A stretch of 64,000 nt of DNA from Halorubrum sp. PV6 (GTDB lineage Archaea; Halobacteriota; Halobacteria; Halobacteriales; Haloferacaceae). Where the stretch lies: the NCBI RefSeq assembly GCF_003990725.2, contig NZ_CP030064.1, positions 1,240,001-1,304,000 of the forward strand, written 5' to 3'. Under the pieces are notes generated by a model. The model ran no database searches and was not told where the DNA came from. It was given only the letters and a program-made list of their open reading frames with translations. Below are positions 3,252 to 34,530 of this stretch, piece after piece (position 1 is the first letter of the stretch; the number at the start of each line of letters is the position of its first letter). A program made the position numbers and the translations under genes.

Positions 3252-3271
3252 ATATCCACGTTCGTGGATAT
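3252..3271. promoter_or_regulatory. Candidate pur operator, ATATCCA-N6-TGGATAT
   Basis: Perfect inverted repeat with 7-bp arms (9-bp arms here, since CG/CG also pair) in the purS-purU divergent region. It lies ~22 bp upstream of the purS TATA-like element and 49 bp from the purS ATG. The same arms with the same 6-bp spacing occur upstream of purD at 34511-34530 in the same geometry. The regulator is unknown to me; a position upstream of TATA fits an activator or a repressor that hinders TFB. Confidence 0.6.
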
Positions 3272-3384
3272 TTAGTGGTCGTTCGTGTGGGTAGCAACGT
3301 CGGCACGGAACGAAAGGGGCAAACCCCTCCGTGTTCTCGAAGTGGGTGTATGCAGCCGTTCGAACTTGCGGAGGTGATCGTCGC

Positions 3385-4368
3385 ATGACCCGCGAACTAA
3401 CCGAAATTACGGTCGTCGGAGGAGACAAGACCGGCCTCATCGCGCGAGTCACCTCCCTGCTGTTCGAGCGGGGAATCAACATCGAGGACCTCGACCAGGC
3501 GGTCCGCGAGGGCGTCTTCCGGATGACGACCCGCGTCGACGCCTCGGAGATGGAGACCTCGCGAGACGAACTCCGGCGCGCGCTCGCCGAACTCAGCCGC
3601 GAACTCGGCGTCGACATCCAGGTCCGGTTCCCGAGCGACCGCGACGCCCGCCGGATCGCGCTCCTCGTGACGAAGGAGACGCACGCGCCCGAGGCCCTCC
3701 TTGAGGCCGAGGCCAACGGCGACCTCGTCGACGACGGCGAGGGCGCCGAGATTCCGGTCGTGATCGGCAACCGCGGCGACCTCCGCTCGCTCGCGGAGCG
3801 CTACGACAAGCCCTTTTACGACGTCGGCGACGGCAACGGCAACACGGACGAAGAGCGCCTGCTCGACCTGCTGGCCGAGTACGAGATCGACCTCATCGCG
3901 TTAGCCCGCTACATGCGCATCCTCTCGCCGGAGGTCGTCTTCCGCTACGAGGGCCGGATCATCAACGTCCACCCCTCGCTTCTGCCGGCGTTCCCCGGCG
4001 CGGAGGCGTACCGACAGGCCAACGACGCCGGCGTCCGGGTCGCCGGCGTCACCGCCCACTACGTCACCACCGACCTCGATCAGGGGCCGGTGATCGCACA
4101 GCGCGCCTTCGACGTGCCCGCCGGCGCCGGCGTCGACGAGATCAAGCGTCGCGGACAACCGCTCGAAGCCGACGTGTTGCTCGACGCCGTCCGGCTCCAC
4201 CTCGCGGACGCCATCGCGATCCACCGGGGGACGGTCCACGTGCGCGAGGACGCCGACGTGGACGCCCAACTGGGGCTCAGCGACGCCGCCATCGACGCGA
4301 ACCCGGACGAGCCGGTCGACGGCGAGCCCTTATCAGACTCGCAGACGCCGACCGCCGGCAGCGACTGA
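3385..4368 (+). CDS. purU: Formyltetrahydrofolate deformylase
   Basis: Hydrolyses 10-formyl-tetrahydrofolate to formate and tetrahydrofolate; the formate can feed the formate-dependent GAR transformylase. 327 aa: an ACT domain (residues ~5-85, TVVGGDKTGLIARVTSLL), then a formyltransferase domain with N-H-P...LLPAFPG (IINVHPSLLPAFPG) and GVTAHYVTTDLDQGPVI, which carry the catalytic Asn, His and Asp. The last ~45 residues are an acidic tail. The ATG at 3385 was chosen over a longer GTG/ATG reading because GGAGGTGATC lies 6-15 nt upstream, an unusually clear Shine-Dalgarno for this window, so the mRNA has a leader. A short hairpin (AGGGG-caaa-CCCCT, 3315-3328) lies in that leader. Divergent from purS. 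Confidence 0.93.
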   Translation: MTRELTEITVVGGDKTGLIARVTSLLFERGINIEDLDQAVREGVFRMTTRVDASEMETSRDELRRALAELSRELGVDIQVRFPSDRDARRIALLVTKETHAPEALLEAEANGDLVDDGEGAEIPVVIGNRGDLRSLAERYDKPFYDVGDGNGNTDEERLLDLLAEYEIDLIALARYMRILSPEVVFRYEGRIINVHPSLLPAFPGAEAYRQANDAGVRVAGVTAHYVTTDLDQGPVIAQRAFDVPAGAGVDEIKRRGQPLEADVLLDAVRLHLADAIAIHRGTVHVREDADVDAQLGLSDAAIDANPDEPVDGEPLSDSQTPTAGSD

Positions 4369-4455
4369 CCGGGGTCGGATTCGACCGCAAGGCCCGGCCG
4401 AACCCGGTCGCGGCCGCCCCACGCTATTTATCACTCGCCGTACAACCGAACAGCG

Positions 4456-4641
4456 ATGCGTCCCCGCCGAAGCCCGTCGCAGTTCGTCGCCGACGCGAGC
4501 GCGGTCGTCAGGAGCGACGAGCGCATGATCCTGCTTTTCCTGGTCCTGCTGGCCATCGCGGCGACCGCGGTGTTCGTCTACTACACCGTCGCGCTGCTCG
4601 ACGCGCTCCCGCAGGTGCCGCCGTCCGTGCCGGGTAGTTAA
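4456..4641 (+). CDS. Small single-span membrane protein
   Basis: 61-aa protein with a basic, Ser-rich N-terminus (~22 aa), one hydrophobic helix (ILLFLVLLAIAATAVFVYYTV, ~25-45) and a short Pro-rich tail. The positive-inside rule puts the N-terminus in the cytoplasm. A TATA-like CTATTTATC (4424-4432) sits ~25 nt upstream of the ATG, which supports a real leaderless gene. Its stop overlaps the stop of the convergent methyltransferase gene by 4 bp. Family not recognised. Confidence 0.6.
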   Translation: MRPRRSPSQFVADASAVVRSDERMILLFLVLLAIAATAVFVYYTVALLDALPQVPPSVPGS

Positions 4642-5432
4642 AAACGGACGAGGAGGTCGCGGTTCGCGGCGCGGTAGGCGAGTTCGTCGGCCGCCATCGC
4701 CGCGCGGCGCCGCGCGGCCCAGTCGCTCGCGTCGTACCCGACCTCGCCGACCGCCGACTCGATGGTGTCGAGGAGGTGCGCGAGGACGGTCCGGTCGCCG
4801 GGCGAGTACGGCGGCTCGATCCGCCACGCCGACGGCCCGCTCGCGACCGTCTCGGCGGCCGCGTCCGCCAACGCCTCCGCCCCGTCCGGCCCGCCCGGAC
4901 GCCGGTCTCGCATGTGTCGGTGGTACGCCGCCAACACGGCGTCGTCGGCCGGGTCCGCCGGCGCGAGCGTCGTCTCCCCGTCGTACGTGATCGGCGCGTA
5001 CGCAACGGGAGCGACGGCGGAGAGCGCGTCGACCGCGGGGGCGGCGTCGACCACGTCGAAGAACGCGCAGCCGACGACGGCGTCGAACCGCTCGCCCGCT
5101 TCGGCGGCCTCGGCCGCGAACTCGAACGCGTCGGCGACGCGGTACGTCATCGCGACGTCGCCCACCCGGTCCCCGAGCCGGTCGCGGCCGGCCGCGAGCG
5201 CCGCATCGTGCGCGTCGACCGCGACCCACCGGCCGCCGTCGACGACCCCCCACTCGACGAGCCGCTCGACCATCGTGGCCGTGCCCGCGCCGACCTCCAG
5301 TACGGTCGGCTCGGCGGGGAGCGCGGCGCCGAACGCGTCGAGCACGTCGCGGTTCAGCGACCGGTCGTCCAATGCCCGCTTCGCGTCGAGGTACGTCGCG
5401 TGGTCCACCTCCGAGCCGCCTTCGCCCGTCAT
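4638..5432 (-). CDS. Class I SAM-dependent methyltransferase
   Basis: 264-aa Rossmann-fold methyltransferase. Seen: motif I VLEVGAGTAT (near residue 42), acidic end of strand 2 in WVAVDAH (near 72), and the DAVVGCAFFDVVDA strand-4 region (near 118). The substrate cannot be read from the sequence. Start at 5432 overlaps the stop of the upstream glycosyltransferase gene (ATGA), so translation is probably coupled; the frame continues upstream but antisense to real coding structure, so the longer reading is rejected. Last gene of a four-gene run with an MDR dehydrogenase, a PTPS-like protein and a glycosyltransferase, suggesting it modifies the same small molecule. Confidence 0.85.
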   Translation of the reverse strand: MTGEGGSEVDHATYLDAKRALDDRSLNRDVLDAFGAALPAEPTVLEVGAGTATMVERLVEWGVVDGGRWVAVDAHDAALAAGRDRLGDRVGDVAMTYRVADAFEFAAEAAEAGERFDAVVGCAFFDVVDAAPAVDALSAVAPVAYAPITYDGETTLAPADPADDAVLAAYHRHMRDRRPGGPDGAEALADAAAETVASGPSAWRIEPPYSPGDRTVLAHLLDTIESAVGEVGYDASDWAARRRAAMAADELAYRAANRDLLVRF

Positions 5433-6508
5433 CGCGACGGCACCCCTTTTAAGAAGTCGACGGCCGCGTCGAGCGTCTCGGGCCAGGTCGGCCACGCCTC
5501 GTAGGCGCGGCGGGCAGCGACCGCCATCTCGGCCAGCCGCTCGCGGTCGTCGAGGCGGCGGATGCGGTCCGTGACGGCGTCCGCGTCGTCCGGGGGGACG
5601 AGGAAGCCTGACTCGCCGTCGGCGACGAACTCGCCGGTGCCGCCGGCGGTCGAGGCGAGCGGGACGCAGCCGAACCCCATCGCCTCCAACTGCGCCATGC
5701 CGAACGGCTCGTAGCGCGAGGGGACGGCGAGGACGTGCGCCTCCCGGAGCCGCGCCGCGACCGCGTCGTCCGCGAGCCGCCCGGTGAACCGGATCCGCCC
5801 GGCGATCCCCGCCTCGGCGGCCAGTCCCCGGACGCGCTCGACGTACCCCGGATCGACTCCGGTGTCCCCGACGACGGTGAGCCGCCAGTCCACGTCGCGG
5901 TCCGGCGCCCGCTCGACGCCGGCCAGTCCCGCGACGAGCGCGGCCAGCCCCTTTCGCTCGACGACGTTGCCGAGGAAGACGAGCCTGAGCGGCCCCGCGG
6001 CGGCGCGCTCGCGGATTTCCGGCCCCGACGGCGACGGCGCGAAGCGGTCTCCCGCGGGCGGCGCGACGACGCCGACTTGCGGCCCACCGAGGGACTCGGC
6101 CCCCTCGCGGGTCGCCGTCGAGTTGTATATCGCGGCGTCGACGCCGGCGAGGAACCGGCCCTCGATCCGCCGGACGACGCGGCGAGCGACGCCCTCGCGA
6201 GCCCGCGAGGCGAGCATGTGTACGAGCGCCACGGTGGGAGTCTCCAGGAGGCGGTTCGCGGCGACGAGCGAGGGGTGCGCGAGCCCGTCTTCGACGAGCA
6301 CGTCGGCGCCCACCCCGTCGAGCTGCGCCGCGATCCGGCGCGCTCGGAGCGAGTCCGCGAGCTGTCGCGCGTACGACCGCCACGGGAGCGAACACACCGT
6401 CACCTCGTGGCCGCGCTCGCGGAGGCGGTCGCGAAGCCGCCGGTCGTAGTAGAACCCGCCCGACCGGCTGTCGATGTCGCCGGCGACGACGAGGCCGACG
6501 TGCATCAC
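5429..6508 (-). CDS. Family 4-type (GT-B) glycosyltransferase
   Basis: 359 aa (or 358 from the second Met). N-terminal Rossmann domain opens HVGLVVAGDIDSRSGGFYYD, the usual acceptor-side start of GT4 enzymes. The C-terminal domain has FLGNVVERKGL (near 175) and SRYEPFGMAQLEAMGFG (near 265), with the two Glu of the EX7E nucleotide-sugar motif. No signal peptide or membrane helix, so it acts in the cytoplasm. Start overlaps the stop of the PTPS-like gene (ATGA) and its stop overlaps the methyltransferase start. Retaining transfer is expected for the family; the acceptor is unknown, but the neighbours make a small soluble metabolite more likely than a surface glycan. Confidence 0.88.
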   Translation of the reverse strand: MMHVGLVVAGDIDSRSGGFYYDRRLRDRLRERGHEVTVCSLPWRSYARQLADSLRARRIAAQLDGVGADVLVEDGLAHPSLVAANRLLETPTVALVHMLASRAREGVARRVVRRIEGRFLAGVDAAIYNSTATREGAESLGGPQVGVVAPPAGDRFAPSPSGPEIRERAAAGPLRLVFLGNVVERKGLAALVAGLAGVERAPDRDVDWRLTVVGDTGVDPGYVERVRGLAAEAGIAGRIRFTGRLADDAVAARLREAHVLAVPSRYEPFGMAQLEAMGFGCVPLASTAGGTGEFVADGESGFLVPPDDADAVTDRIRRLDDRERLAEMAVAARRAYEAWPTWPETLDAAVDFLKGVPSR

Positions 6509-6876
6509 CGAAGCGACCCGGTGTAGGAGACGCGGGCCGTGTCGTCCTCGTGGACGGCGACGGTCAGCTCCTCGACCGCCGGGGCGTCGATGTCAGCGAG
6601 CCGGTCGAACAGGGCGCGCGCGAGCCGCTCGACGCTCGGGTTCCCTTCGAGCCGGTCGTTGAGCGTCTCGTCGCGGTACGCGTCGACCGCCTCGGCGACC
6701 CGCGCGGTCGCTACGTCGATGTCGAGGAGGTAGCCGTACTCGCCGAGCGTCGACCCGCGGAAGGTCACTTCGGCCTCGAAGGCGTGTGAGTGGAGCGCCG
6801 CCTCCTCCGGCGGCGGGCTCGGGACGGTCAGGAAGTGCTGTGCGACGAACGGTTCGGAGACGGTGAGCGCGTACAT
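6505..6876 (-). CDS. 6-pyruvoyl-tetrahydropterin synthase / QueD superfamily protein, cysteine-free
   Basis: 123-aa T-fold protein. Zn-ligand histidines fit H14 (QHF) and H29/H31 (HSH), and NPSVERLARALF (near 79) matches the family's NPTxExLA segment that binds the pterin pocket. The protein has no cysteine, so the catalytic Cys of classical PTPS and QueD is absent; a PTPS-III-like or other chemistry must be considered. It lies 22 bp after the MDR dehydrogenase and overlaps the glycosyltransferase (ATGA). No queC or queE neighbour is visible, so an archaeosine role is not supported by context. Role in modified-pterin synthesis is inference. Confidence 0.8.
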   Translation of the reverse strand: MYALTVSEPFVAQHFLTVPSPPPEEAALHSHAFEAEVTFRGSTLGEYGYLLDIDVATARVAEAVDAYRDETLNDRLEGNPSVERLARALFDRLADIDAPAVEELTVAVHEDDTARVSYTGSLR

Positions 6877-6898
6877 GTGTTGCGGCGTGAGAGCGGGG

Positions 6899-7930
6899 TT
6901 AGTAGGTGAACAGTACCTGGACGGTCGGTTCGGCGTCGTCAGCGAGCCGGCGGTACGCGGCGGGCGCCTCCTCGACGTCGAATCGGTCGGTCACGAGCCG
7001 GTCGGCGATGCGGTCTTCGGCTTGGAGCCGGCGGAGTTCGCGCCAGGCCGTCTCGCGGCGGCGGTCGGCGTCCCACCGGCCGCGAAGCTCGGGGGCGATG
7101 GTCGAGACCTGGCTGCTCTCGACGGCCACGCGCCCCCGGTGGAAGTGGTCGCCGAACCCGATCTCGGCGCGCTTCGTCCCGTACCACGACCCGACGAGGA
7201 CGCGGCCGCCGAAGCGGGTCGCCTCCACGGCGGTTTCGAGCGTCTCGGGGCGACCGCTCACCTCGACCGCGAGGTCGACGCCGCCGGTGCGATCGCGGAG
7301 CGCCTCGCTCGCGTCGACGGCCGAGGGATCGACGGTGGCGTCGGCGCCGAGCGCGTCGGCCAGGGCGCGGCGGTCCGCTCTGGGCTCGACGGCGACGACG
7401 TCCGCCGCCGGCGACCGCGAGAGGAGCGCGGTCGTCAGCAGGCCGACGACGCCCTGCCCGAACACGGCGATGCGCTCGCCGATCCGGGGCGCCCCGTCGA
7501 GCGCGAAGTTGACCGCGGTCTCGGTGTTGGCGAAAAGCGCCGCGGTCTCGGGACCGATCCCGTCCGGGACCGGCTGTAACTCCTCGGTGGAGGCGAGAAA
7601 CCGGCCCTCGTGGGGGTTAAAACCGAACACGGTCTCGCCGCGCCACGAGGGGTCGACGCCGTCGCCGACGGCGGCGACGGTCCCGACCACCGAGTAGCCG
7701 TACCGGAGGGGGTACGAGAGATCGCCGGAGAGCGCTTCGAGCGCCTCGTCGGCGGCGGTCTCGGGGTCGAGGTCGCCGCGGTACGCGAGCAGTTCCGTCC
7801 CCGCGCTGACGGCCGACACCGTCGTCTCGACGAGGACTTCGCCGCGGTCGGGCGCCGGCGGGTCGACGTCGACCACGTCGACCTCGCGAGAGGCCGAGAA
7901 CTCGATCGCGCGGGCGGCACCCACGTTCAC
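6899..7930 (-). CDS. MDR-superfamily dehydrogenase without zinc ligands
   Basis: 343 aa, medium-chain dehydrogenase/reductase fold. The N-terminal GroES-like part has VSAVSAGTELLAYRG (near 38), where the catalytic-zinc Cys of alcohol dehydrogenases is replaced. YGYSVVGTVAAVGDGV follows. The nucleotide site is VFGQGVVGLL (near 155). No structural-zinc Cys cluster is present. The S-x-G-T-E signature is shared with BchC-like and related oxidoreductases, so a zinc-independent reaction on a cofactor-like substrate is plausible. First gene of the run with the PTPS-like protein, glycosyltransferase and methyltransferase. Confidence 0.85.
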   Translation of the reverse strand: MNVGAARAIEFSASREVDVVDVDPPAPDRGEVLVETTVSAVSAGTELLAYRGDLDPETAADEALEALSGDLSYPLRYGYSVVGTVAAVGDGVDPSWRGETVFGFNPHEGRFLASTEELQPVPDGIGPETAALFANTETAVNFALDGAPRIGERIAVFGQGVVGLLTTALLSRSPAADVVAVEPRADRRALADALGADATVDPSAVDASEALRDRTGGVDLAVEVSGRPETLETAVEATRFGGRVLVGSWYGTKRAEIGFGDHFHRGRVAVESSQVSTIAPELRGRWDADRRRETAWRELRRLQAEDRIADRLVTDRFDVEEAPAAYRRLADDAEPTVQVLFTY

Positions 7931-8104
7931 GAACCCTCCGCCGTCCGCGGGGCGAGATAGATATGAGACGGCATAGCACTTTATTGAGGCCGGTGCCTAT
8001 TGGATGTTCGGTGACGTGGTGTGCGCGTGCGGGCGGTGGTGTCGGAGACGCGGCGGACGCCACGGGCACACCTAAGGGACCGGGGAACCATACCAAACGT
8101 GAAC

Positions 8105-8461
8105 ATGGCACTCACCGACAATATCGACTTCGACGCCCTGACGCCGGTCCACTGGGTCGGGATCGCCGCCGCCGCCGTCACGGGCGTGTACCACCTCGTG
8201 ACCGGGGTGCAGATCGGCGGCGTGTTCGGTGTGTCGTTCCTGTTCGCGACCGCGGGGTTCGCGCTCGGGATCGCCGCGGTGCTCGTGGCGTACCGTCCCC
8301 GGCTCGTCTACCTGCTCGGGATCCCCTTCACGGGCGGGCAGATCGTCTTGTGGTACCTGCTGAACGACGTGCCGCCGATACCCGCGGGTCACGCCGTCGA
8401 CAAGGGCGCGCAGGTCGTCCTGATCGCGGCGCTGATCGTGTTGCTTCGCCGAGAGACGTAA
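8105..8461 (+). CDS. Small integral membrane protein, four predicted helices
   Basis: 118 aa. Hydrophobic segments near residues 14-35, 40-62, 66-86 and 97-114, separated by short loops; the last residues are basic (LRRET). Looks like a conserved haloarchaeal membrane protein of unknown function, though I cannot assign the family firmly. The ATG at 8105 begins MALTDNIDF; the same frame is open upstream to 8021 but that part is Arg-rich non-coding-like sequence. Convergent with the phosphatidyltransferase gene across a 16-bp triplicated repeat. Confidence 0.75.
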   Translation: MALTDNIDFDALTPVHWVGIAAAAVTGVYHLVTGVQIGGVFGVSFLFATAGFALGIAAVLVAYRPRLVYLLGIPFTGGQIVLWYLLNDVPPIPAGHAVDKGAQVVLIAALIVLLRRET

Positions 8462-8477
8462 GGGCGACCGACGGCGG

Positions 8478-8525
8478 CTTCTGTGACCATTTGCTCCTGT
8501 GACCGTTTGCTTCTGTGACCGTTTC
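8478..8525. repeat. 16-bp tandem repeat, three copies
   Basis: Copies at 8478-8493, 8494-8509 and 8510-8525, consensus CTTCTGTGACCGTTTG with one or two substitutions each. It fills the gap between two convergent genes. No hairpin; function unknown. Confidence 0.85.
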
Positions 8526-8548
8526 GCTCCGACGACCCGCCCGCCCGA

Positions 8549-9316
8549 TCACTCGGGAGCGATAGGCGGGTCGTCGCGTCCCAACCGCCCGGTCGCGGCC
8601 GCCCAGTCGCGGACGAAACTCGCGAGGAGGACCGCCAGCGCGACGCCCGCGACCGCCGCGAGCGGTCGGCCGCCGATACCGGGAGCCAGCCCCGCGGCGA
8701 CGACGAGAAACTGCGCGATACCGATCGGTCCGCGGACGCGGCTCGGCGGGAGTTCGTAGGTCGGTTCGCCGGCGCGCTTCCGGAGCCACAGCGACCCCGC
8801 GTAGGCGTACCAGACGCCGCCGGCGACGAGGTACCACGCCGGAAGCGCCCCGCCCCCGACCGCGACGACCCCGCCGACGAGGACCGCGAGGGCGTCGACC
8901 GCCGCGTCGAGTCGTGCGCCGAGGACTGTCTCGCGGGTCCGCCTCGCGACCGCCCCGTCGACCGCGTCGAGCGACACGGCGACGCAGAACAGCGCGACCG
9001 GCACCCACCGGTTCGGCGCCGACCCGAGCGGCGCTCCCGCGAGGACGGCGAGGAGCCACCCGCGGAACAGCGTGATGGCGTTCGCGGCCCCGAGCGTCGA
9101 GCGGGCGCGAGCGGCACCCGGCGCCCGGTTCGCAGTCAGGTTGCTTCCGGCGTACACCGCCAGGTACAGGCCGACCGGCGCCGCGCCGAGCAGCCACCGC
9201 CCGCCGAAGAGCGGCCGGAGCGCGACGAGGCCGAGCGCGCCGGCGGCGACCGCTCCGAGAAACCGCCGTCGGAGGCGCGAATGGTCGGCGCGGTCGGGCG
9301 CGTCGGCGCTCGGCAT
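8549..9316 (-). CDS. CDP-alcohol phosphatidyltransferase family protein
   Basis: 255-aa membrane enzyme that moves a phospho-lipid (CDP-archaeol in archaea) or other phospho-alcohol group. The signature DxxDGxxAR...GxxxDxxxD is seen in DAVDGAVARR...GARLDAAVD near residues 135-155; its Asp residues bind the metals and CDP. Hydrophobic helices before and after the motif suggest about six spans. Start at 9316 (MPSADAPDRAD) was chosen; the longer frame to 9496 is antisense to the cmk promoter. It is shorter and less typical than PgsA or archaetidylserine synthase, so the exact alcohol is not assigned. Confidence 0.85.
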   Translation of the reverse strand: MPSADAPDRADHSRLRRRFLGAVAAGALGLVALRPLFGGRWLLGAAPVGLYLAVYAGSNLTANRAPGAARARSTLGAANAITLFRGWLLAVLAGAPLGSAPNRWVPVALFCVAVSLDAVDGAVARRTRETVLGARLDAAVDALAVLVGGVVAVGGGALPAWYLVAGGVWYAYAGSLWLRKRAGEPTYELPPSRVRGPIGIAQFLVVAAGLAPGIGGRPLAAVAGVALAVLLASFVRDWAAATGRLGRDDPPIAPE

Positions 9317-9454
9317 ACGACCGCTGATGGCGCGCGCACAGTTCGGTGTTCCGGTCTCGCAGATCGCTGCACGGCCGGGGGACGGGAGCAGACGAACCGC
9401 CCGTCGGCCGTGCCGCGATCGACCGACGCGACTCGAACTCGCCCGAACCGGCCC

Positions 9455-9462
9455 GTTTATCC
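9455..9462 (+). promoter_or_regulatory. TATA-like element of cmk
   Basis: GTTTATCC 25-32 nt upstream of the cmk ATG with no Shine-Dalgarno between, consistent with a leaderless transcript. Confidence 0.5.
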
Positions 9463-9486
9463 GGGGTCCGTCCGTGGCGCCCACGT

Positions 9487-10101
9487 ATGAGTACACCCTC
9501 GGCGTCGACGGAGCGCGATATCGACCGGAACCTCTTCATAACGGTCTCGGGGCCGCCGGGCTGCGGCGCGACGACGCTGGTGGAAGAGCTCGCGGCGACG
9601 CTCGACTGCGGCTTCGTCTCGGGCGGCGAACTGTTCCGCGAGATCGCCGCGGAGCGAGACATGAGCCTCTCACAGCTGATCGCGAAGACGGGCGAGTCCG
9701 AGGAGATCGACCGGGCGCTGGACGAGCGCCTCCGCCGGATCGCCGAGAAGTGGGGCACCGCGAACAAGGCGTTCGTGCTCGAATCGCGGCTCGCGGGCTG
9801 GATCGCCGGCAACCGCGCCGACATGCGGATCTGGCTCGACGCGCCCGACGAGGTGCGCGCCGACCGGACGCTCGACCGCGAGGAGATGACCTCCGAGATG
9901 CAGGTGCGCGAGGTGATCGAAGAGCAGCGCTACCAGTCGTACTACGGTATCGATCTCTCGGACCGGTCGATCTACGACCTGGCGATCAACACCGGCCGCT
10001 GGGACGCCGAGTCGACGCTGGAACTCGCCCTCACGGCCATCGAGAACTACGACATCGAGGCCGACGAGGGCGCGTTCGACACGCCCGACTTCGAAATCTG
10101 A
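9487..10101 (+). CDS. cmk: Cytidylate kinase
   Basis: Phosphorylates CMP and dCMP with ATP. 204 aa, the short archaeal form. Seen: P-loop SGPPGCGATT (near residue 21), FVSGGELFREIA where the archaeal family has the CMP-contacting segment, VLESRLAGWIA, and the lid/Arg-rich DEVRADRTLDREE. An acidic ~10-residue N-terminal extension precedes the P-loop. Convergent with the YihY gene. Upstream TATA element at 9455-9462 supports this start over the longer open frame. Confidence 0.93.
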   Translation: MSTPSASTERDIDRNLFITVSGPPGCGATTLVEELAATLDCGFVSGGELFREIAAERDMSLSQLIAKTGESEEIDRALDERLRRIAEKWGTANKAFVLESRLAGWIAGNRADMRIWLDAPDEVRADRTLDREEMTSEMQVREVIEEQRYQSYYGIDLSDRSIYDLAINTGRWDAESTLELALTAIENYDIEADEGAFDTPDFEI

Positions 10102-10164
10102 CCGGGCGCGCCGGTCCGCGTGGTCGCCGCGGGTCGCTTGGTTATAAACACCGACCGCGGGGTC

Positions 10165-11223: not shown

Positions 11224-11291
11224 GAGTCGTAGTCGACGCTCGCGGGTATCAACCTACGCACGGACGCCGGCGACACGCCGCTCGTCGCCCG

Positions 11292-16267: not shown

Positions 16268-16270
16268 GAC

Positions 16271-26252: not shown

Positions 26253-26258
26253 TTATAA
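26253..26258 (+). promoter_or_regulatory. TATA box of the ASCH gene
   Basis: TTATAA within GCTTATAAAC, 26-31 nt upstream of the ATG at 26284; leaderless geometry. Confidence 0.55.
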
Positions 26259-26283
26259 ACCGATCCGCGACCAACGGAGGGGT

Positions 26284-26625: not shown

Positions 26626-26646
26626 GGCGGTTCGACGCGCCGGGCG

Positions 26647-27399: not shown

Positions 27400-27476
27400 G
27401 GGTGTCACTACGCGGAGCGCCGACTTAGGCGCGTCGTCGCACCGGGCGTCCGGTCGGCGCCGTCCGCCGCGACACG

Positions 27477-29318
27477 CTACTCCGCCGGGTCGCCGTGAAC
27501 CGCGCGCTCGACTGCCGCTTCGAGGCGCTCGCGGGTGCGATGGCTCGGCTCGGCGTCCGTGCGCACTTCGATCAGGTGCGAGCCGGGCGTCTCGCGGGCC
27601 TCGGTGAGCGCGTCGGCGAGCGCGTCGGCCGTCGCCGTCGGGGCCGTCGCCGCGCCCTCGGCGTCCGGTCGCGCGTCGATGCGGGCGTACGCCAGCCCGT
27701 GTAAGTCGGCCAGGGGCTCGAACTCGATCCCGTGCGGCGTCTTGAACGCCTCCGTGAACTCCGGCTCGAACGACTCGATGGGGAGCTTGTGGAAGATGCC
27801 GCCGCCGTCGTTGTTGATCAGGACGACCGTCGCGTCGACGTCGCACCGGTCGAGCGCCAGCAGGCCGTTCGAGTCGTGGTAGAGGGCCAGGTCGCCGACG
27901 ACGAGCGTGAGGTCGTCGGTCGTCGCGGAGCCGGCGCCGAGCGCGCTGGACACGATCCCGTCGATCCCGGAGACGCCGCGGTTGCCGAGCGCGGTGACGC
28001 TCGTCGTCGTGGGGGAAACGAAGCGGTCCAGGTCGCGGACCGGCATCGAGTTGGAGACGAAGAGCGTCGCGGGGTCGGGGAGCGCGTCGGCGACGACCCG
28101 GAGCGCGTCGCCCTCGTGGAAGGGGAAGGGGTCGTCCGTCGCTTCGGCGTCCGCGTCTCGCCCGTGGATCGCCGCCGCGGTGCGGTCGGCAGCCTCCCAC
28201 TGCGCGCGCCAGTCGCCGTCGCCGTCACCGCCGGCGACGAGCCGAGAGAGGCGGGCACAGAGGCGGCTCGGCTCGGCGACGACCAGATCCGTCGCCGCGA
28301 ACTCTGCTTCGCGCCAGCGACCCGCGGGGTCGACCTGGTACTGGTCGGCGTCGGTTCCGGCGAGGTACTTCCGGAGTCGCTTCGAGGTGGGGGAGGCGCC
28401 GAGTCGGACGACGAGTTCGGGGTCGGTCCAGCCGTGCGACTCGCCGGCGACCGCCGCCGAGAGGTACGCGTCGTAGGCGCCGATCACGGGCGCGACGCGG
28501 GTGTGCCCGCCGAATCGGACCCCGGAGAGGGGGTCGGCGAGGATCGGGAACCCCGTCGCGTGCGACAGCGCCGTGATCGCCTCGGCGTCGAGCCCCGGCG
28601 GGTCCGCGGGGCCGGCGACGATCAGGCCGCGCTCGGTCGTCGACAGCGCGTTTGCGAGCCGCCGGAGCTCGTCGTCGCCCGGCGACGGCGATCCGGGTGT
28701 CACGTCGACGTAGGCGCCGTCGCGGCCGCGCTCGGCGGACGGGTCGAGGTCGGCCGGCACGTCGTCGGCCACCCGCGTCGGCTCCAGCGGCTTTTTAAAT
28801 GGGACGTTGAGGTGGACGGGTCCGGGGTCGGCGCCCTCGGCGGTCCCGACGGCGCGCGCGACGGTGGTCCGAAGCGAGCGCAGCGCCCGGTCGTTCGGCG
28901 CCGGCTCCGGGAGGTCCTTATAAAACCGGACGGCGTCGCCGTACAGCTTCTCCTGGTCCGCGGTCTGGTTCGCGCCCGAGTCGCGCAGTTCCGGCGGTCG
29001 GTCGGCCGTGAGCGCGAGCAGCGGGACGCGGGCCTCGCTCGCCTCCATCACGGCCGGGTGGTAGTTGGCGGCGGCGGTGCCGGAGGTACAGATAAGCGGC
29101 GTCACCGTCCCGGTCCGGCGCGCGCGGCCTAAGGCGAAGTAGGCGGCCGAGCGCTCGTCCAACTGGGAGAACACTCGTAGCTCGTCGTTGCGCGCGGCGG
29201 CCATCGTCAGCGGCGTGGAGCGGCTTCCGGGCGAGGCGACGACGGCGTCGACGCCCGCGGCGACGAGCTCGTCGACGAGGGCGCGCGCCCACAGCGTGTT
29301 CCGGTTCGGCGCGGTCAT
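27477..29318 (-). CDS. menD: SEPHCHC synthase (menaquinone synthesis)
   Basis: ThDP enzyme joining isochorismate and 2-oxoglutarate. 613 aa, normal length. Seen: PGSRSTPLTMAAARN (N-terminal motif), DERSAAYFALGRAR with the catalytic Glu region, CTSGTAAANYHPAVMEA, ADRPPELRDSGANQTADQ, and the ThDP/Mg site GDLALYHDSNGLLAL...NNDGGGIFHKLP. Haloarchaea use menaquinone as respiratory quinone, which fits. Promoter: TTTAAATAC at 29341-29349, ~25 nt upstream. F-Y-K and F-K-K in this gene are spelled with A/T-ending codons. Confidence 0.96.
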   Translation of the reverse strand: MTAPNRNTLWARALVDELVAAGVDAVVASPGSRSTPLTMAAARNDELRVFSQLDERSAAYFALGRARRTGTVTPLICTSGTAAANYHPAVMEASEARVPLLALTADRPPELRDSGANQTADQEKLYGDAVRFYKDLPEPAPNDRALRSLRTTVARAVGTAEGADPGPVHLNVPFKKPLEPTRVADDVPADLDPSAERGRDGAYVDVTPGSPSPGDDELRRLANALSTTERGLIVAGPADPPGLDAEAITALSHATGFPILADPLSGVRFGGHTRVAPVIGAYDAYLSAAVAGESHGWTDPELVVRLGASPTSKRLRKYLAGTDADQYQVDPAGRWREAEFAATDLVVAEPSRLCARLSRLVAGGDGDGDWRAQWEAADRTAAAIHGRDADAEATDDPFPFHEGDALRVVADALPDPATLFVSNSMPVRDLDRFVSPTTTSVTALGNRGVSGIDGIVSSALGAGSATTDDLTLVVGDLALYHDSNGLLALDRCDVDATVVLINNDGGGIFHKLPIESFEPEFTEAFKTPHGIEFEPLADLHGLAYARIDARPDAEGAATAPTATADALADALTEARETPGSHLIEVRTDAEPSHRTRERLEAAVERAVHGDPAE

Positions 29319-29340
29319 TACGACCGATTGGAGGTCGGGA

Positions 29341-29349
29341 TTTAAATAC
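29341..29349 (-). promoter_or_regulatory. TATA-like element of menD
   Basis: Minus strand GTATTTAAA, centred ~27 nt upstream of the menD ATG. Confidence 0.5.
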
Positions 29350-29409
29350 TCCCGCGGGTCGGGCGCGTCGGGACTGGGGACGGCGGCGGCCGCGCCTCCC
29401 CGGTGCCGC

Positions 29410-30351
29410 TCACCGCCGGTCCAGCCGCGAGAGCCCGTGCCACACCGCGTCGACGAGGCGGTCTTCCCCGTCGCCCTCCGCCGCTTCCCACCCGCGAGCG
29501 AGCGCGTCCTCCAGCACGGGGACGGGGTGGTTTTCGAAGTTGTTCATCCCGCGGAACGTCTCCAGGGCGTCGCGCTCGGCGTCGCCGAACGCCGCGTCGT
29601 CGCCCGCCCCGACTTCACCCGCGTCGAGGTACCCGAGGTCGACGAGCGCGGCCGACACCGCCGCCGCGGTCTCGCCGGTCAGTTCCCGGGTTTCGTCGGG
29701 CGACTCGCGCTCCAGCAGGGTCACGTCGTACAGCTTGAACACCCGCTCTAACTCGTCGATCGGCGCCTCGTGGTCGTCGACGCGCACGTCGACCCACCGG
29801 TCGTTGCGCCCGTCGTAGCCGCCCTCCGGCTTGGCGACGTACAGCGCCGCCGACTGCTCGCCGCGCTTGTCGCCGCCGGCCTCGTTGCCGGCGTGGAGCG
29901 CCGCGATCAGCCGTTCGGGGAGGCCGCCGTCGGTCGCCTCGAACGTCTCCGCCATCGCGTCGAGGGTGGCGGCGTTCTCCAGGATGTTACCTTGGACGGT
30001 GTAGTGGTCGCCCTGCCGGTCGCCGGCGTGGTCGTGACACTCGTCGCCGGTGAACGCCGCCACCGAGCCGTCGGCGCCGACGACGCCGACCTGTCGCGAG
30101 GGCGCCTCCTCGTCCTCGTCGGTGAGCCGCTCGACGACCGCGGGGGCGTCGTCGCCCTCGCGCAGGAGGTCGAGTCCGTCGGGTCCGTACGCGACGTTCG
30201 CGTAGCTCTGGGTGGCGATCGCGCCGGCGTCGGCGCTCGCGAACGGGACGACGGCGCCGACGCCGACGAACTTCGACTGGACCGCGACGCCGACGGCGTC
30301 GGTCTCCGGGTCGCGCGCGACGATCGAGAAGGTCGAGGGGCGGACTGGCAT
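29410..30351 (-). CDS. DUF1028-family Ntn-hydrolase-like protein
   Basis: 313 aa. N-terminal STFSIVARDPETDAVGVAVQSKFVGVGAVVPFA is the DUF1028 (Ntn-fold) start, followed by IATQSYANVAYGPDGLDLL and QVGVVGADGSVAAFTGDECHDHAGDRQGDHYTVQGN. The C-terminal ~90 residues are the extra domain often found in longer members, once described as peptidoglycan-binding-like, which would make little sense in an archaeon. Catalytic activity is unproven. Start at the internal ATG (30351) because homologous sequence begins there. Confidence 0.85.
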   Translation of the reverse strand: MPVRPSTFSIVARDPETDAVGVAVQSKFVGVGAVVPFASADAGAIATQSYANVAYGPDGLDLLREGDDAPAVVERLTDEDEEAPSRQVGVVGADGSVAAFTGDECHDHAGDRQGDHYTVQGNILENAATLDAMAETFEATDGGLPERLIAALHAGNEAGGDKRGEQSAALYVAKPEGGYDGRNDRWVDVRVDDHEAPIDELERVFKLYDVTLLERESPDETRELTGETAAAVSAALVDLGYLDAGEVGAGDDAAFGDAERDALETFRGMNNFENHPVPVLEDALARGWEAAEGDGEDRLVDAVWHGLSRLDRR

Positions 30352-30474
30352 ACGGTTCGGACCGTCGGGCGCGGGCGGCATAAATCCGGTCGGGTCGCCC
30401 CGGTTCGGGCCGCCTCGCCCGCGCGTCCGTTCCGTTCTGCAACGCTTATGCCCGCCGACCGACTTCTATTGGAC

Positions 30475-31167
30475 ATGAGCGACGACGACGCCGTCGACGT
30501 CGAGGTCGAGTCCCCCGACGACGCCGCGAGCGACGCGGCGCGAACGAACGGCACCGCGGACGCGGCGACAGAAGAACCGAGCGACGAGGGCGCCGGCGCG
30601 GAGGACGAAGCCGGCGTCAAGGATATCGCTGACGACCGCGAGGCGCTCGCCGCCGCCGTCGCCGAGCACGACGAGGCGCTCGCGCGGGAAGTCGCGGCCC
30701 TGGAGGCGGAACTCGACGAGACGCGCGACGAACTGTTAGACGCCGAGGCGGAAAACGAGGAGCTTACCAGCAAACTGGCGCGGGTCAAAGCCGACTTCAG
30801 CAACTACAAACAGCGCGCGAAACGCAAGCAAGACGAGATCCGCGAGCGCGCCTCTGAGCAGCTCGTCGAGCGCATCACCCCGGTCCGCAACGACCTCCTG
30901 CGTGCGCTCGACCAGGAGGCGGGCAGCGACCTCCGCCCCGGCGTCGAGTCGACGCTGGAGAAGTTCGACGAGGTGCTGGCCGACGAGGGCGTCGAGCCGA
31001 TCGAACCCGATCCGGGCGAGGACGTGGACCCGGCCCGCCATCAGGTGATGTTGCGCGTCGAGAGCGACCGCCCCGCGGGCACCGTTCACGAGGTGTACGA
31101 ACCGGGCTACGAGATGGGCGACCGCGTGATCAGGGAAGCGAAAGTCACCGTCAGCGACGACGAGTAA
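30475..31167 (+). CDS. grpE: GrpE nucleotide-exchange factor
   Basis: Releases ADP from DnaK. 230 aa: a long acidic N-terminus (~1-60), coiled coil (ALAREVAALEAELDETRDELLDAEAENEELTSKLARVKADFSNYKQRAKRK, ~60-120) and the C-terminal beta domain with MLRVESDRPAGTVHEVYEPGYEMGDRVIREAKVTV. dnaK and dnaJ, which often follow grpE, are not in this window; instead surE follows on the opposite strand. Confidence 0.95.
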   Translation: MSDDDAVDVEVESPDDAASDAARTNGTADAATEEPSDEGAGAEDEAGVKDIADDREALAAAVAEHDEALAREVAALEAELDETRDELLDAEAENEELTSKLARVKADFSNYKQRAKRKQDEIRERASEQLVERITPVRNDLLRALDQEAGSDLRPGVESTLEKFDEVLADEGVEPIEPDPGEDVDPARHQVMLRVESDRPAGTVHEVYEPGYEMGDRVIREAKVTVSDDE

Positions 31168-31191
31168 CCCGAATTTCTCAGTCGGCGTCGG

Positions 31192-31998
31192 CTACGCGCT
31201 GTCGGTCACGCCGCCGTACGCCGCCGCCAACTCGTCGAGGTCCGCGTCCGGGGCCGTCTCGTGTGGCACGGACAGCGGCGAGACGGAGACCTCGCCGTCG
31301 ACGACCGCGCGGCGGTCGGTCCCGACCGGGTCCGGTACGTCCTCCGCGTTCATCTTCCCCCAGATCGGGTCCGAGAAGGTGACGCGCCCGTTCCCGTCGT
31401 GAGCCGCCTCCATCCCGTACCACGGCGAGGGGTCGGTGACGCGCATCGGCGCCGCCGCCTCGTCGTCGCCCTCCGTGATCGGCGCGTTGATATTTAAATA
31501 GTCGACGCGCTCGAACGCGCCGGCCGCGGTCGCCTCCCGAATCAAAAATCGGGTCGCGCGCGTCGCATTCGCGAACTCGGGCGGCGAGAACTCCCGTTTC
31601 CACCAGTCGTCTCCGCCGGGCACGTACATCGACGCCGCGACCGCGGGCACGCCGAAGAAGGCGGCCTCGACCGCGGCGGAGACGGTTCCGGAGCGTCCGA
31701 GGGTGTACGCCCCGAGGTTCGCGCCCTCGTTACAGCCGGCGACGACCATGTCGGCGTCCGGGACCAGCGCGTCGAGCCCCGCGACCACGCAGTCGACCGG
31801 GGTGCCGTCGACGGCGTACCCCAGCTCGTGTTCCGCGACATCGACGCCGTCCGAGAGGGTGCGCCCGGTCGAAGACTGGTCGTCGGTGGGTGCGACCGCG
31901 ACCACGTCGTAGTCGGCCGACAGGCCCTCGTAGAGCGCCCTGATACCGGCGGCGTCGATGCCGTCGTCGTTCGTCAACAATACGCGTTCGACACTCAT
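31192..31998 (-). CDS. surE: 5'/3'-nucleotidase SurE
   Basis: Metal-dependent nucleoside-monophosphate phosphatase. 268 aa. Seen: VLLTNDDGIDAAGIRAL (metal-binding Asp-Asp), APTDDQSSTGRTLSDG, YAVDGTPVDCVVAGLDAL and VAGCNEGANLGAYTLGRSGTVSAAVEAAFFGVPAVAAS. Start MSVERVLL at 31998; the frame is open far upstream but only as non-coding-like Arg-rich sequence. One internal Y-L-N-I is spelled TAT TTA AAT ATC. Confidence 0.95.
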   Translation of the reverse strand: MSVERVLLTNDDGIDAAGIRALYEGLSADYDVVAVAPTDDQSSTGRTLSDGVDVAEHELGYAVDGTPVDCVVAGLDALVPDADMVVAGCNEGANLGAYTLGRSGTVSAAVEAAFFGVPAVAASMYVPGGDDWWKREFSPPEFANATRATRFLIREATAAGAFERVDYLNINAPITEGDDEAAAPMRVTDPSPWYGMEAAHDGNGRVTFSDPIWGKMNAEDVPDPVGTDRRAVVDGEVSVSPLSVPHETAPDADLDELAAAYGGVTDSA

Positions 31999-32055
31999 AC
32001 GATCTGTTCGGGCGGTTCGGGCAAAAGTCCACCGTCGCGAGGCGACGCGGCGAGT

Positions 32056-32115
32056 CGCCGGCCGCGCGCCGCTCCCGTTCCGAACCGCCGGCCGCGCGAC
32101 GCCCCCGTTCCGAAC
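32056..32115. repeat. 30-bp tandem duplication
   Basis: Two adjacent copies, 32056-32085 and 32086-32115, differing at two positions, in the divergent gap between surE and the DUF5798 gene. Confidence 0.8.
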
Positions 32116-32151
32116 GGAAAGGCCCACGTACCACCGGTCCGATCGCCCGGT

Positions 32152-32469
32152 ATGGGATTCGGGGACACGGCAAAAAAGATTCAGACGCTCGCCGACAAGG
32201 CGGAGCGCACGTACCAGAAGATCAACGAACTTCGCGAGGAGGTCGAGACCACCCAGTCGACCGTCGTTGAGACCTCCGAGCGAGTCCAACTGCTCGAAAA
32301 CGAGATGGCCGAACAGCGCGCCGTCCTCGACGCTGTCGCTCGCGGGGTCGGCGTCGACTTGGAGAGCGTGAGCACGGAAGCGCACATCACCGACGCCGAG
32401 GCGGCGGCGACGGACGGCGACGGCGCGGACGCGACCGCCGAGTCCGGCGGCGAGAGCGGCGAACAGTAA
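32152..32469 (+). CDS. DUF5798-type coiled-coil protein
   Basis: 105 aa. Opens MGFGDTAKKIQTLADKAERTYQKINELREEVE, then a heptad-rich coiled coil to ~residue 68 and an acidic Ala/Glu/Gly tail. Fits the small haloarchaeal DUF5798 family. Function unknown; the coiled coil suggests oligomerisation. ATG 32152 chosen because upstream codons in frame run through the 30-bp duplication. Confidence 0.78.
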   Translation: MGFGDTAKKIQTLADKAERTYQKINELREEVETTQSTVVETSERVQLLENEMAEQRAVLDAVARGVGVDLESVSTEAHITDAEAAATDGDGADATAESGGESGEQ

Positions 32470-32531
32470 GACGCGCGCAGCGTCCGATCGGTCGGGGCGT
32501 CTCGGTCGCGTTCGCGTCGGTGCGGTGGTGC

Positions 32532-33125
32532 TTATTCGTCGGACTCGTCGGACTCGTCGCCGGCGTCGGTCGTTTCTTTCGCCCGCGAGACGACCTCGGC
32601 CGGCACGCCCGCGACCGTCGTGTCCGGGGGCACGTCGTCGGCGACGAGCGAGTTCGCGGCCACCTGCGCGCCCTCGCCGACCGTCACGCCCGGCAGGACG
32701 ACCGCGCCGGCCCCGATCATCGCGCCCGCCTCGACGACGACGTCGCCGAGGCGGTACTCGTCGCGGAGGAACTCGTGACAGAGCAGCGTCGCGTCGTAAC
32801 CGATGATCGCGTGGTCGCCGACCGTGATCCGCTCGGGCCAGAACACGTCCGGCGTCGACTCTAACCCCCACGCGACGCCGGTGCCGACCGTGACGCCGAT
32901 CCGACTGAGCAGCCAGTTTTTCAGCGCGAGGCTCGGGCAGATCCGCGCGAGGACGATGACGACGTAGTTGCGAACGACGACGAGCGGCGACTTCGCGTCC
33001 GGCCACGACCACAGCGAGTTGCGCGCGCCGCCGGTCCGGTGTCGCTCCAGTCTGTCGGTCCGGGCGCCGCCGGGGGCCTCCTTGTCGGTTGCGGCGGCGT
33101 CGGACCGCCCGTCGTCGTGAGTCAC
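32532..33125 (-). CDS. Left-handed beta-helix (hexapeptide) acyltransferase
   Basis: 197 aa. Hexapeptide repeats run from ITVGDHAIIGYDATLLC to VVVEAGAMIGAGAVVLPGVTVGEGAQVAANSLVADDVPPDTTVAGVPAEVV, the usual end of the LbH domain. The first ~45 residues are charged, followed by VVVRNYVVIVLARICPSLALKNWLL, which could sit on the membrane. Acyl-CoA-dependent O- or N-acetylation is likely; the acceptor is unknown. Ends in a run of D-E-S repeats. Confidence 0.87.
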   Translation of the reverse strand: MTHDDGRSDAAATDKEAPGGARTDRLERHRTGGARNSLWSWPDAKSPLVVVRNYVVIVLARICPSLALKNWLLSRIGVTVGTGVAWGLESTPDVFWPERITVGDHAIIGYDATLLCHEFLRDEYRLGDVVVEAGAMIGAGAVVLPGVTVGEGAQVAANSLVADDVPPDTTVAGVPAEVVSRAKETTDAGDESDESDE

Positions 33126-33173
33126 GGAGGGTCGTTCGGGCGGCGCCGGTAAAAGGGTCGCTGCCGAGGCGGG

Positions 33174-34457
33174 TTACCGGCGGATCTCGGCCATGTGGTC
33201 GATCCGGCGCTGGACGAGGTCGGCTTTCCCCACGTCGTGGCGGATCCGGACTCGGTCGCCGGCGGCCGAGAGACCGTCTTCGGCCTGCGCCTCCGCGGCG
33301 GCGATGGAGTCGCCGCGGCCGACGACCGCGAACGCCCGCGAGGTGGTCGTGTACAGGCCGTCGTCCCGTTCGTCGACGCTGGCGTAGTAGAGGAGCGCGT
33401 CGCCGACGCTCTCCTCGTCGACCGCGATCTTCGCGCCCGCGTCGGGGTCGACCGGGTAGCCGTCCGGGACGGCGTACTTACAGACCGTCGCCTCGCCGGA
33501 GAAGCCGAGTTCGGGGAGCGGGTCCTCGTCGCGCGCGGCCGTGAGCACGTCCACGAACGGCGTCGACAAGGCCGGGAGCGTGTTCATCGCCTCCGGGTCG
33601 CCGAAGCGCGCGTTGAACTCGACGACCTTCGGCCCCTCGTCGGTGAGCATGAACTGGCCGTAGAGGACGCCCTTGTAGTCGGGGAGCGACTCGACGACCG
33701 CGTCCAGCACCGCGACGGCGGCCTCGTAGTCGCCCTCGGCCATGAAGGGAAGCGAAAGGCCCGTGTCCGAGTACGACCCCATCCCGCCGGTGTTCGGCCC
33801 CTCGTCGCCCTCGTAGGCGCGCTTGTGGTCCTGGACCGCGGGCGTCGTCCGCACGTCGCCGTTGGCGACGAACGCCTGAATCGTGAACTCCTCGCCGACG
33901 AGTCGCTCTTCGAGCACGACGCGCTCGTAGTCGGAGTCGCGGAGGTACGCCTTCGCGCCCTCGGCGTCCACCTGATCGCCCATCACTTTCACGCCCTTGC
34001 CGCCGGTGAGTCCGACCGGCTTCACGGCGAGGTCGCCCTCGTAGTCGTCGATGTAGTCGCAGGCGGCCTCGATGTCGTCGAACACCGCGTAGTCGGGACA
34101 GCCGGGGATCTCGGCCTCCTCCATGAACTCGCGCTGGAACGCTTTATCCGTCTCCAGTCGCGCTTCCTCGGCCTGCGGGCCGAACGCGTACACGCCGGCC
34201 GCGTCGAGCGCGTCGGCGACGCCCGCCGCGAGCGCGGACTCCGGGCCGATCACGGCGATGTCCGCGCCGACCGCGGTCGCGTAGTCGGCGACCGCCTCGG
34301 CGTCGGTCTCGTCTATCGTCTCGAACCCGTCGGCGAGGCGTCGAATTCCCGGATTGCGGTTGCTCGCGCAGGCGTACAGCGCACAGTCGTCGGCGACGGC
34401 GCGGGCAATGGCGTGTTCGCGCCCGCCGCCCCCCACCAGGAGTACGGTCTCCGTCAT
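33174..34457 (-). CDS. purD: Phosphoribosylamine-glycine ligase
   Basis: Second step of purine synthesis (GAR synthetase), ATP-grasp fold. 427 aa. Seen: VLLVGGGGREHAIARAVA at the start, VIGPESALAAGVADAL, PVGLTGGKGVKVM (ATP loop), and EDPLPELGFSGEATVCKYAVPDGYP; the family's DxNARFGDPE segment is present as EFNARFGDPEAMNTLP. A leaderless promoter (TTTACAC, 34481-34487) and the ATATCCA-N6-TGGATAT palindrome lie upstream, in the same order as at purS. Confidence 0.96.
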   Translation of the reverse strand: MTETVLLVGGGGREHAIARAVADDCALYACASNRNPGIRRLADGFETIDETDAEAVADYATAVGADIAVIGPESALAAGVADALDAAGVYAFGPQAEEARLETDKAFQREFMEEAEIPGCPDYAVFDDIEAACDYIDDYEGDLAVKPVGLTGGKGVKVMGDQVDAEGAKAYLRDSDYERVVLEERLVGEEFTIQAFVANGDVRTTPAVQDHKRAYEGDEGPNTGGMGSYSDTGLSLPFMAEGDYEAAVAVLDAVVESLPDYKGVLYGQFMLTDEGPKVVEFNARFGDPEAMNTLPALSTPFVDVLTAARDEDPLPELGFSGEATVCKYAVPDGYPVDPDAGAKIAVDEESVGDALLYYASVDERDDGLYTTTSRAFAVVGRGDSIAAAEAQAEDGLSAAGDRVRIRHDVGKADLVQRRIDHMAEIRR

Positions 34458-34480
34458 GTGCGACCGATAACTGCACGGTA

Positions 34481-34487
34481 GTGTAAA
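34481..34487 (-). promoter_or_regulatory. TATA-like element of purD
   Basis: Minus strand TTTACAC, 24-30 nt upstream of the purD ATG, matching the element of purS at 3224-3231. Confidence 0.55.
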
Positions 34488-34510
34488 CTTTGCTTTCTTT
34501 CTACAGCCGA

Positions 34511-34530
34511 ATATCCACTATCTTGGATAT
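34511..34530. promoter_or_regulatory. Candidate pur operator, ATATCCA-N6-TGGATAT
   Basis: Second copy of the 20-bp palindrome seen at 3252-3271. The arms are identical while the 6-bp centre differs (CTATCT here, CGTTCG there), as expected of a dimeric protein site. It lies 24 bp upstream of the purD TATA-like element. Confidence 0.6.

Follow-up and report, generated by a model that had tools for sequence, protein, structure and literature searches.

A palindromic operator of a predicted purine regulon in Halobacteria and its candidate HTH-phosphoribosyltransferase regulator

Introduction

The palindrome ATATCCA-N6-TGGATAT stands in front of both purS and purD in a 64,000-nucleotide stretch of the genome of the archaeon Halorubrum sp. 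PV6 (NZ_CP030064.1, positions 1,240,001 to 1,304,000), further referred to as the window. Is this palindrome an operator of purine genes, and if so, which protein may bind it? A sequence-only reading of the window had proposed it as a candidate operator of a dimeric regulator. Papers are cited below by PMC number. A 2013 study concludes that the purine genes of Halobacterium need a TrmB-independent regulator and that no PurR homologue is recognized by sequence (PMC3794607); together with a second study it infers that these genes are under a factor that responds to purines and is independent of TrmB (PMC3794607, PMC4540570).

Comparison of genomes and proteins of Halobacteria provided the operator, its regulon, the gene neighbourhood of a candidate regulator, htpR, the joint loss of htpR and the operator, and the domain anatomy of the protein. 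Based on these, we consider it quite probable that the palindrome serves as operator for a purine regulon that many Halobacteria share. Its most likely binder is a dimer of the htpR product, a putative regulator, with activation as the more likely mode of control.

Probable operator in the purS and purD promoters

The following features of the window form the starting point.

3252..3271, no strand assigned: operator copy 1, palindrome ATATCCACGTTCGTGGATAT, in the purS promoter (purS/purU intergenic region)
3224..3230, minus strand: TATA-like element TTTACAC of the purS promoter, starting 27 bp ahead of the ATG
2952..3203, minus strand: purS, FGAM synthase subunit, 83 amino acids (PF02700, E=2.2e-25)
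34511..34530, no strand assigned: operator copy 2, palindrome ATATCCACTATCTTGGATAT, in the purD promoter
34481..34487, minus strand: TATA-like element TTTACAC of the purD promoter, starting 30 bp ahead of the ATG
33174..34457, minus strand: purD, phosphoribosylglycinamide synthetase, 427 amino acids (Pfam GARS_A, GARS_N, GARS_C)

Both copies of ATATCCA-N6-TGGATAT are exact, and, as the sequence-only reading had it, the window contains no further copy; this is so even if three mismatches are allowed. The gene assignments of that reading (purS, purD and the divergent purU-type gene) were borne out by Pfam. Its spacings hold as well: measured from the inner 18-mer, TTTACAC is 22 bp away in the purS promoter and 24 bp away in the purD promoter, and the ATG is 49 and 54 bp away, respectively. 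With at most three mismatches the two sites compare with 0.12 expected from shuffled sequences, two being also reached in one of 100 shuffles. By position weight matrix (PWM) score the copies are the first (31.4, purS) and the second (21.2, purD) in the window, the next best sequence scoring 3.2. In the complete 3.04-Mb genome they are the sole exact matches of the palindrome, and with at most two mismatches five sites are found against none for the reversed control.

Purine regulon in Halobacteria

Genomes were searched with the palindrome and with the degenerate pattern TATMCAYRNNYRTGKATA; the control for pattern counts was the same pattern read backwards. Among 59 genomes including that of PV6, 21 had a match to the palindrome with at most one mismatch, and among the loci fetched the site was located 49–50 bp ahead of purS in 13 genomes (PV6 and 12 relatives). 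With at most one mismatch, the degenerate pattern matched 122 sites across 52 genomes from the same genus (control, 7), and with no mismatches, 120 sites across 391 genomes of Halobacteria (control, 3). The surroundings were read for 70 of the genus sites and 50 of the class sites. Of these 120 sites, 107 (60 of 70 and 47 of 50, respectively) are located 30–170 bp upstream of purine-related genes, namely purS, purF, purD, purNH, purK, purC, purL, guaB, folD and azgA, the latter encoding an NCS2-type permease by PF00860. The products of purF, purK, purB, guaB, purC, folD and purL score over their NCBIfam cut-offs; for purNH this holds for the PurN half, whereas the PurH half, truncated at the locus end, is under the cut-off. 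Copies at further purine promoters, which the sequence-only reading had named as the expected support, are found in relatives before purF, purL, purK, purC, purNH, guaB, folD and the purine permease gene, at distances that are steady for most genes and in numbers far over the control. The remaining 13 sites read lack a purine target (L051, L056 at a contig end, L062, L076, L082, L086, L093, L104, L106, L108, L129, L130 and L178); where their neighbours were readable, no adjoining transcription-factor gene was seen by eye.

In the PV6 genome itself, the degenerate pattern with at most two mismatches gives nine sites, of which five precede purS, purD, purF, azgA and purNH, and four (C1:382039, 525497, 848667 and 2583425) are not ahead of purine genes. 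Sites at purK (C1:690758) and guaB (C1:901875) surface only at three mismatches, where searches yield mostly noise (63 sites against 42 in the control for the degenerate pattern, and 25 against 17 in another relaxed search); these two, out of the part of the three-mismatch sites that was read, were retained because of the gene and the position. No PV6 sites were found for purL, purC and folD, genes that were not searched by name.

The consensus was derived from 101 sites, each combination of gene and sequence being counted once. It reads TATmCAyr-NN-yrTGkATA, or TATCCACGATCGTGGATA in sequence form, and carries 24.3 bits. The arms are TATmCA with C or A in position 4. The positions next to the arms (7–8 and 11–12) follow the pattern YR/YR with approximately 1 bit each, and the middle pair has 0.5 bit each. 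Hence the sequence-only reading was only partly right in describing the 6-bp centre as unconserved: this holds for the loose middle pair, whereas the YR flanks are kept. The palindromic form suggests that the regulator binds as a dimer. Taken together, the sequence comparisons make the palindrome very probably a pur operator.

Position of the operator relative to the ATG and TATA

The distance from the site to the ATG is 49–50 bp in all 31 distinct purS promoters having the site with at most two mismatches, and 54 bp in all six distinct purD promoters with a site. It equals 53–55 bp for purK (n=5), 53 or 56 bp for purNH (n=9), 40 bp for purL (n=6), 80–89 bp for guaB (n=6) and 72–73 bp for folD (n=5). 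For azgA it is 53–63 bp in 23 of 24 promoters and 82 bp in one, and for purF, 65–81 bp in 27 of 28 and 124 bp in one.

The TATA-like elements for cross-genome distances were chosen by simple matching. Across genes the operators are located 5–53 bp upstream of TATA, with a modal value per gene. The distance is 20–21 bp for purS, 23 bp for purD, 21–22 bp for purK, 20 bp in seven of nine purNH promoters, 20–29 bp in 17 of 24 azgA promoters and 9–10 bp in five of six purL promoters; longer distances are seen for purF (42–45 bp in 26 of 28), folD (40–44 bp) and guaB (53 bp). Phasing of operator and TATA at 10.5 bp gave p=0.006 for ten promoters and p=0.06 for four spacing classes, which is only suggestive of distances near whole helical turns.

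Haloarchaeal TrmB activates when bound upstream of TATA and inhibits when bound downstream (PMC10817205). By analogy with TrmB, the location of the operator upstream of TATA therefore favours activation. A role at the RNA level was set aside by reasoning, given that the sites are upstream of TATA.

Candidate regulator

A genome search found eight genes with a phosphoribosyltransferase (PRT) domain in PV6. The candidate regulator, with a predicted helix-turn-helix (HTH) and a PRT domain, is the following gene.

C1:280734-281444, outside the window: htpR, HTH-phosphoribosyltransferase candidate regulator, 237 amino acids (NF006328)

Its product matches the adenine phosphoribosyltransferase family NF006328 (PRK08558) over the full length (355 bits, cut-off 184), and its best sequence matches in the PDB are to PurR of Bacillus subtilis (E=4e-9). 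The copy of Halorubrum kocurii was modelled with a pLDDT of 91.6; residues 1–75 modelled alone form four helices and no strand (pLDDT 92.6). The N-terminal part gives weak matches to XRE and POU-type folds (best Foldseek E=0.15, Z up to 7.3), and NRYVNGHVLP, within and after helix 3, is invariant in 42 sequences. The PRT part has the fold shared by PurR, xanthine phosphoribosyltransferase (XPRT) and adenine phosphoribosyltransferase (APRT), with Z 23 for XPRT and 20.5–20.8 for PurR (root mean square deviation 1.9–2.3 with 167–170 residues aligned), and its phosphoribosyl pyrophosphate (PRPP) loop, VVDDLIRSGET, aligns with IIDDFMKAGGT in the comparison with PurR. The models depict the htpR product as an XRE-like HTH fused to a PRT domain resembling that of Bacillus PurR. 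In one genome (G040, C1:192406-192567) a stretch matches only residues 2–55 of the htpR family, that is, the HTH (E=1.7e-14), approximately 2 kb from the full-length gene.

In PV6, htpR is directly upstream of azgA, and the azgA operator (C1:281539-281556) lies between them. A protein-alignment scan for htpR relatives was made, and the best 80 of 228 were kept, all from Halobacteria records. In 75 of these 80 loci azgA is found downstream of htpR, no more than 1.5 kb away. In 30 of the 75, azgA is preceded by a site with two mismatches or fewer, compared with 21 of 3200 random intervals. Upstream of htpR itself, all 80 loci contain a site-like sequence with five mismatches or fewer, compared with 362 of 3200 random, somewhat shorter, intervals; the best such sequence is 55–59 bp from the htpR ATG in 56 loci and 13–15 bp from it in 14. 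Autoregulation of htpR is likely on this evidence; it is not firm, since the flanks are poorly conserved.

Joint loss of htpR and the operator

Using the threshold E<=1e-30, htpR was found in 310 of the 391 Halobacteria genomes. Exact sites occur in 99 of these 310 genomes and in none of the 81 genomes without htpR (Fisher p=1.9e-12). Counted by genus, the numbers are 38 of 68 and 0 of 18 (p=4.8e-6), and four families (f1, f4, f5 and f7) contain genera with and without htpR side by side. A sample of the phylum comprised 246 genomes, of which 38 exceed the NF006328 cut-off; each of these is PV6 itself or belongs to its genus, family or order. Two of 14 named control genomes are also over the cut-off, so a copy of NF006328 may exist outside Halobacteria.

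Promoters were then compared in 15 genomes without htpR and 15 genomes with htpR, the latter picked for having no exact site. PurF, PurD and PurS were found in all 30 genomes. The PWM scores separate the groups for purS (p=6.6e-6), purD (p=5.7e-5) and purF (p=1.2e-5). Without htpR, the best scores are −7.7, −9.3 and −11.9 for purS, purD and purF, respectively; with htpR, scores above 0, a value reached by 2.7% of random windows, are seen in 12, 11 and 12 of the 15 genomes. Moreover, in the group with htpR the best place is 48–50 bp from the purS ATG in 13 of 15 genomes and 54–55 bp from the purD ATG in 11 of 15. At purS, purD and purF, the site is for the most part retained where htpR is present and lost where it is absent.

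Proposed mechanism and alternatives

From the comparisons we infer the binding by htpR, the dimer, the effector and the sign of control. A dimer of the htpR product would bind the palindrome, its N-terminal XRE-like HTH reading the half-sites. The C-terminal PRT pocket would, like that of Gram-positive PurR, sense PRPP and perhaps also purine nucleotides or (p)ppGpp, Bacillus PurR being the parallel (PMC8789054). Bound upstream of TATA, the protein would aid the basal machinery, and the pur and permease genes would be activated at high PRPP and low purines, as by PurR of Lactococcus, which activates with PRPP (PMC3547956).

A number of observations weigh against htpR as the regulator acting through this operator. 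No exact site is present in 211 of the 310 htpR genomes, the sites drift (for example, in Haloferax), and 45 of the 75 azgA promoters have no site with at most two mismatches. Among the 15 htpR genomes of the promoter comparison, G107 and G219 lack a good site at purS, purD and purF alike; G080 lacks one at purF, and at purD its score comes from a position other than the usual one; the purD score of G084 is −8.9, about equal to the best of the group without the gene; and negative scores at the usual spacing are found in G102 (purD, −2.3) and G200 (purS, −3.1). A zinc-ribbon coding sequence is directly upstream of purF in 11 of 15 genomes without htpR and in two of 15 with htpR. The purF comparison is therefore confounded, and the weight rests on purS and purD. 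The HTH is weak both as a Pfam profile (HTH_3, E=0.084, under the cut-off) and by the fold scores given above. Finally, the joint-loss comparison covered htpR alone among transcription factors.

The same operator and the same HTH-PRT protein might act as a repressor released by PRPP, like PurR of B. subtilis, which is possible, though we doubt it. The PurBoxes of Bacillus are just upstream of the −35 element, yet PurR represses (PMC8789054), and the 14 htpR promoters with the site-like sequence close to the ATG would suit a repressor as well; the drop of Halobacterium pur mRNA with rising purines is compatible with either sign (PMC4540570). The placement upstream of TATA with modal values per gene argues for activation, as does the activation by haloarchaeal TrmB bound upstream (PMC10817205).

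The operator may also be real but serve a different protein that disappeared along with htpR and azgA, htpR being only a salvage enzyme within the regulon; we consider this improbable. NF006328 carries an enzyme name, and salvage genes are often members of purine regulons. A network model proposed VNG5009H, VNG2614H and VNG2163H as regulators (PMC3794607). Against this, the N-terminal domain of htpR is helical, carries invariant residues and gives XRE-like fold matches, and none of the 81 genomes without htpR has an exact site.

Assignment of the site to TrmB or GfcR is very unlikely, and both were rejected as binders. Weak TrmB binding was reported at some Halobacterium purine promoters (PMC4540570), and GfcR is likewise an HTH-PRT protein (NF045507); however, the TrmB motif TACT-N7-8-GAGTA is missing from the window (0 matches, 0.07 expected), and GfcR is a separate gene of PV6 (C1:853746), of a separate family, whose product activates sugar catabolism (PMC11519228). 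The origin of the two copies by coincidence, or as a repeat without regulatory role, with which the noise of the relaxed PV6 searches would agree, is practically negligible and was rejected given the shuffle and reversed controls, the purine class of the genes, the fixed place at orthologous promoters and the joint loss with htpR.

Returning to htpR as the regulator, we suggest tentatively that it could be a trigger enzyme, that is, a still active adenine phosphoribosyltransferase that also regulates purines in many Halobacteria. Its HTH-PRT architecture would then have an origin separate from that of Gram-positive PurR, which has a different HTH, and from that of GfcR. If so, the salvage enzyme itself would read PRPP and adenine and set de novo synthesis and purine uptake.

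Neighbouring genes and additional sites

Two further genes adjoin the purS promoter or follow purS.

2186..2872, minus strand: purQ-type glutamine amidotransferase, downstream of purS (GATase_5, PF13507, E=1.2e-40)
3385..4368, plus strand: purU-type formyl transferase with an ACT domain, divergent from purS (PF00551, PF13740)

Possible control of purU by the purS site was raised in the sequence-only reading. Among 29 distinct promoters the site is 104–114 bp from purU in 28, the exception being 85 bp; this steadiness could arise merely from the fixed purS promoter, and control of purU is only a possibility. A 12-codon upstream open reading frame, MQPFELAEVIVA, precedes purU (3350-3388, plus strand), its stop overlapping the purU ATG (3385) as ATGA. 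It contains a Shine-Dalgarno-like stretch, GGAGGTGATC, and the frame recurs with equal length up to the purU ATG in 27 of the 29 distinct purU promoters.

Between purNH and purB, toward purB, there is a second sequence resembling the site, TATCCACGTCTGTGCGAC, with PWM score 2.0 (L157 10054, PV6 C1:737490), and several relatives have sequences similar to it. In single genomes, an exact consensus site is found 46 bp ahead of a 5'-nucleotidase-like gene under all family cut-offs (L016, G024 C11:54410), and a site with one mismatch adjoins a gene taken by eye to be pyrB, which encodes aspartate carbamoyltransferase (L086, G060 C17:5380). Locus L140 (G202 C8) has two tandem azgA-like permease genes, the exact site preceding the second one. 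Weak sites are present beside orthologous O-acetylhomoserine sulfhydrylase genes in PV6 (L361, C1:2583425, two mismatches) and in another genome (L082, G031 C1:481634, one mismatch), and this gene is a possible further target. The palindrome TATACACACGTGTGTATA at L178 (G204 C21:3359), between genes read by eye as being of lactate-utilisation type, is perhaps a site of a different regulator.

Comparison with known systems

PurR of B. subtilis and Lactococcus lactis (TIGR01743) is a close parallel: both PurR and the htpR product combine an HTH and a phosphoribosyltransferase, and the regulon, predicted in the case of htpR, is the whole purine pathway. The htpR product scores 41.2 bits with TIGR01743, well under the cut-off of 258.7, and three relatives score 37–55 bits. 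The basic residue of the PRPP loop is K in PurR and R in htpR, with A in the APRT compared. Gram-positive PurR has a winged HTH, whereas that of htpR is XRE-like according to weak fold matches. The DNA sites differ as well, an 18-mer palindrome being linked with htpR and the PurBox AWWWCCGAACWWT being used by Gram-positive PurR (PMC3547956), and htpR, unlike Gram-positive PurR, would act on archaeal promoters.

GfcR of Haloferax volcanii (NF045507) is a haloarchaeal HTH-PRT regulator, which is the role proposed here for htpR. However, the htpR protein of PV6 is unlisted for NF045507 at E<=0.1, and of its relatives, L121 scores 12.4 bits of the 300 required, while L181 and L260 are unlisted at E<=10. 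GfcR controls sugar catabolism (PMC11519228), unlike the purine role proposed for htpR. The family NF006328 is known as an enzyme, from which htpR is set apart by its putative regulatory role and N-terminal HTH; adenine phosphoribosyltransferase activity was detected in H. salinarum, with VNG0559G named as the gene (PMC4540570).

Regulators of other families offer partial likenesses. TrmB belongs to a protein family other than that of htpR, and its motif differs from the pur operator. In Halobacterium and Haloarcula it is a metabolic regulator whose sites are upstream of TATA when it activates (PMC10817205). The palindromic operator of E. coli PurR, a LacI-family protein, recurs across the purine regulon, as here (PMC10912719).

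The effectors of E. coli PurR are hypoxanthine and guanine. As a protein, it is unrelated to htpR. In another archaeal lineage, Pyrococcus, a regulon of purine synthesis and transport was reportedly predicted by comparison (Gelfand, Koonin and Mironov, 2000). Among the papers listed by searches of PMC, judged by the title or the start of the abstract, neither the operator nor the htpR protein is named in connection with purine regulation; in the passages of one paper that deal with purines, E. coli is the subject, save for one Halobacterium dpp isoform group enriched for purine synthesis (PMC4299497).

The analysis offers three things amenable to haloarchaeal genetics: a defined operator, a regulon with approximately ten targets, and a single candidate protein that the name of an enzyme has concealed. 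If the assignment of htpR is true, fusions of an HTH with a phosphoribosyltransferase have given rise to purine regulators on more than one occasion. As a kind, HTH-PRT purine regulators are already known; the lineage, the DNA-binding domain and the operator are new.

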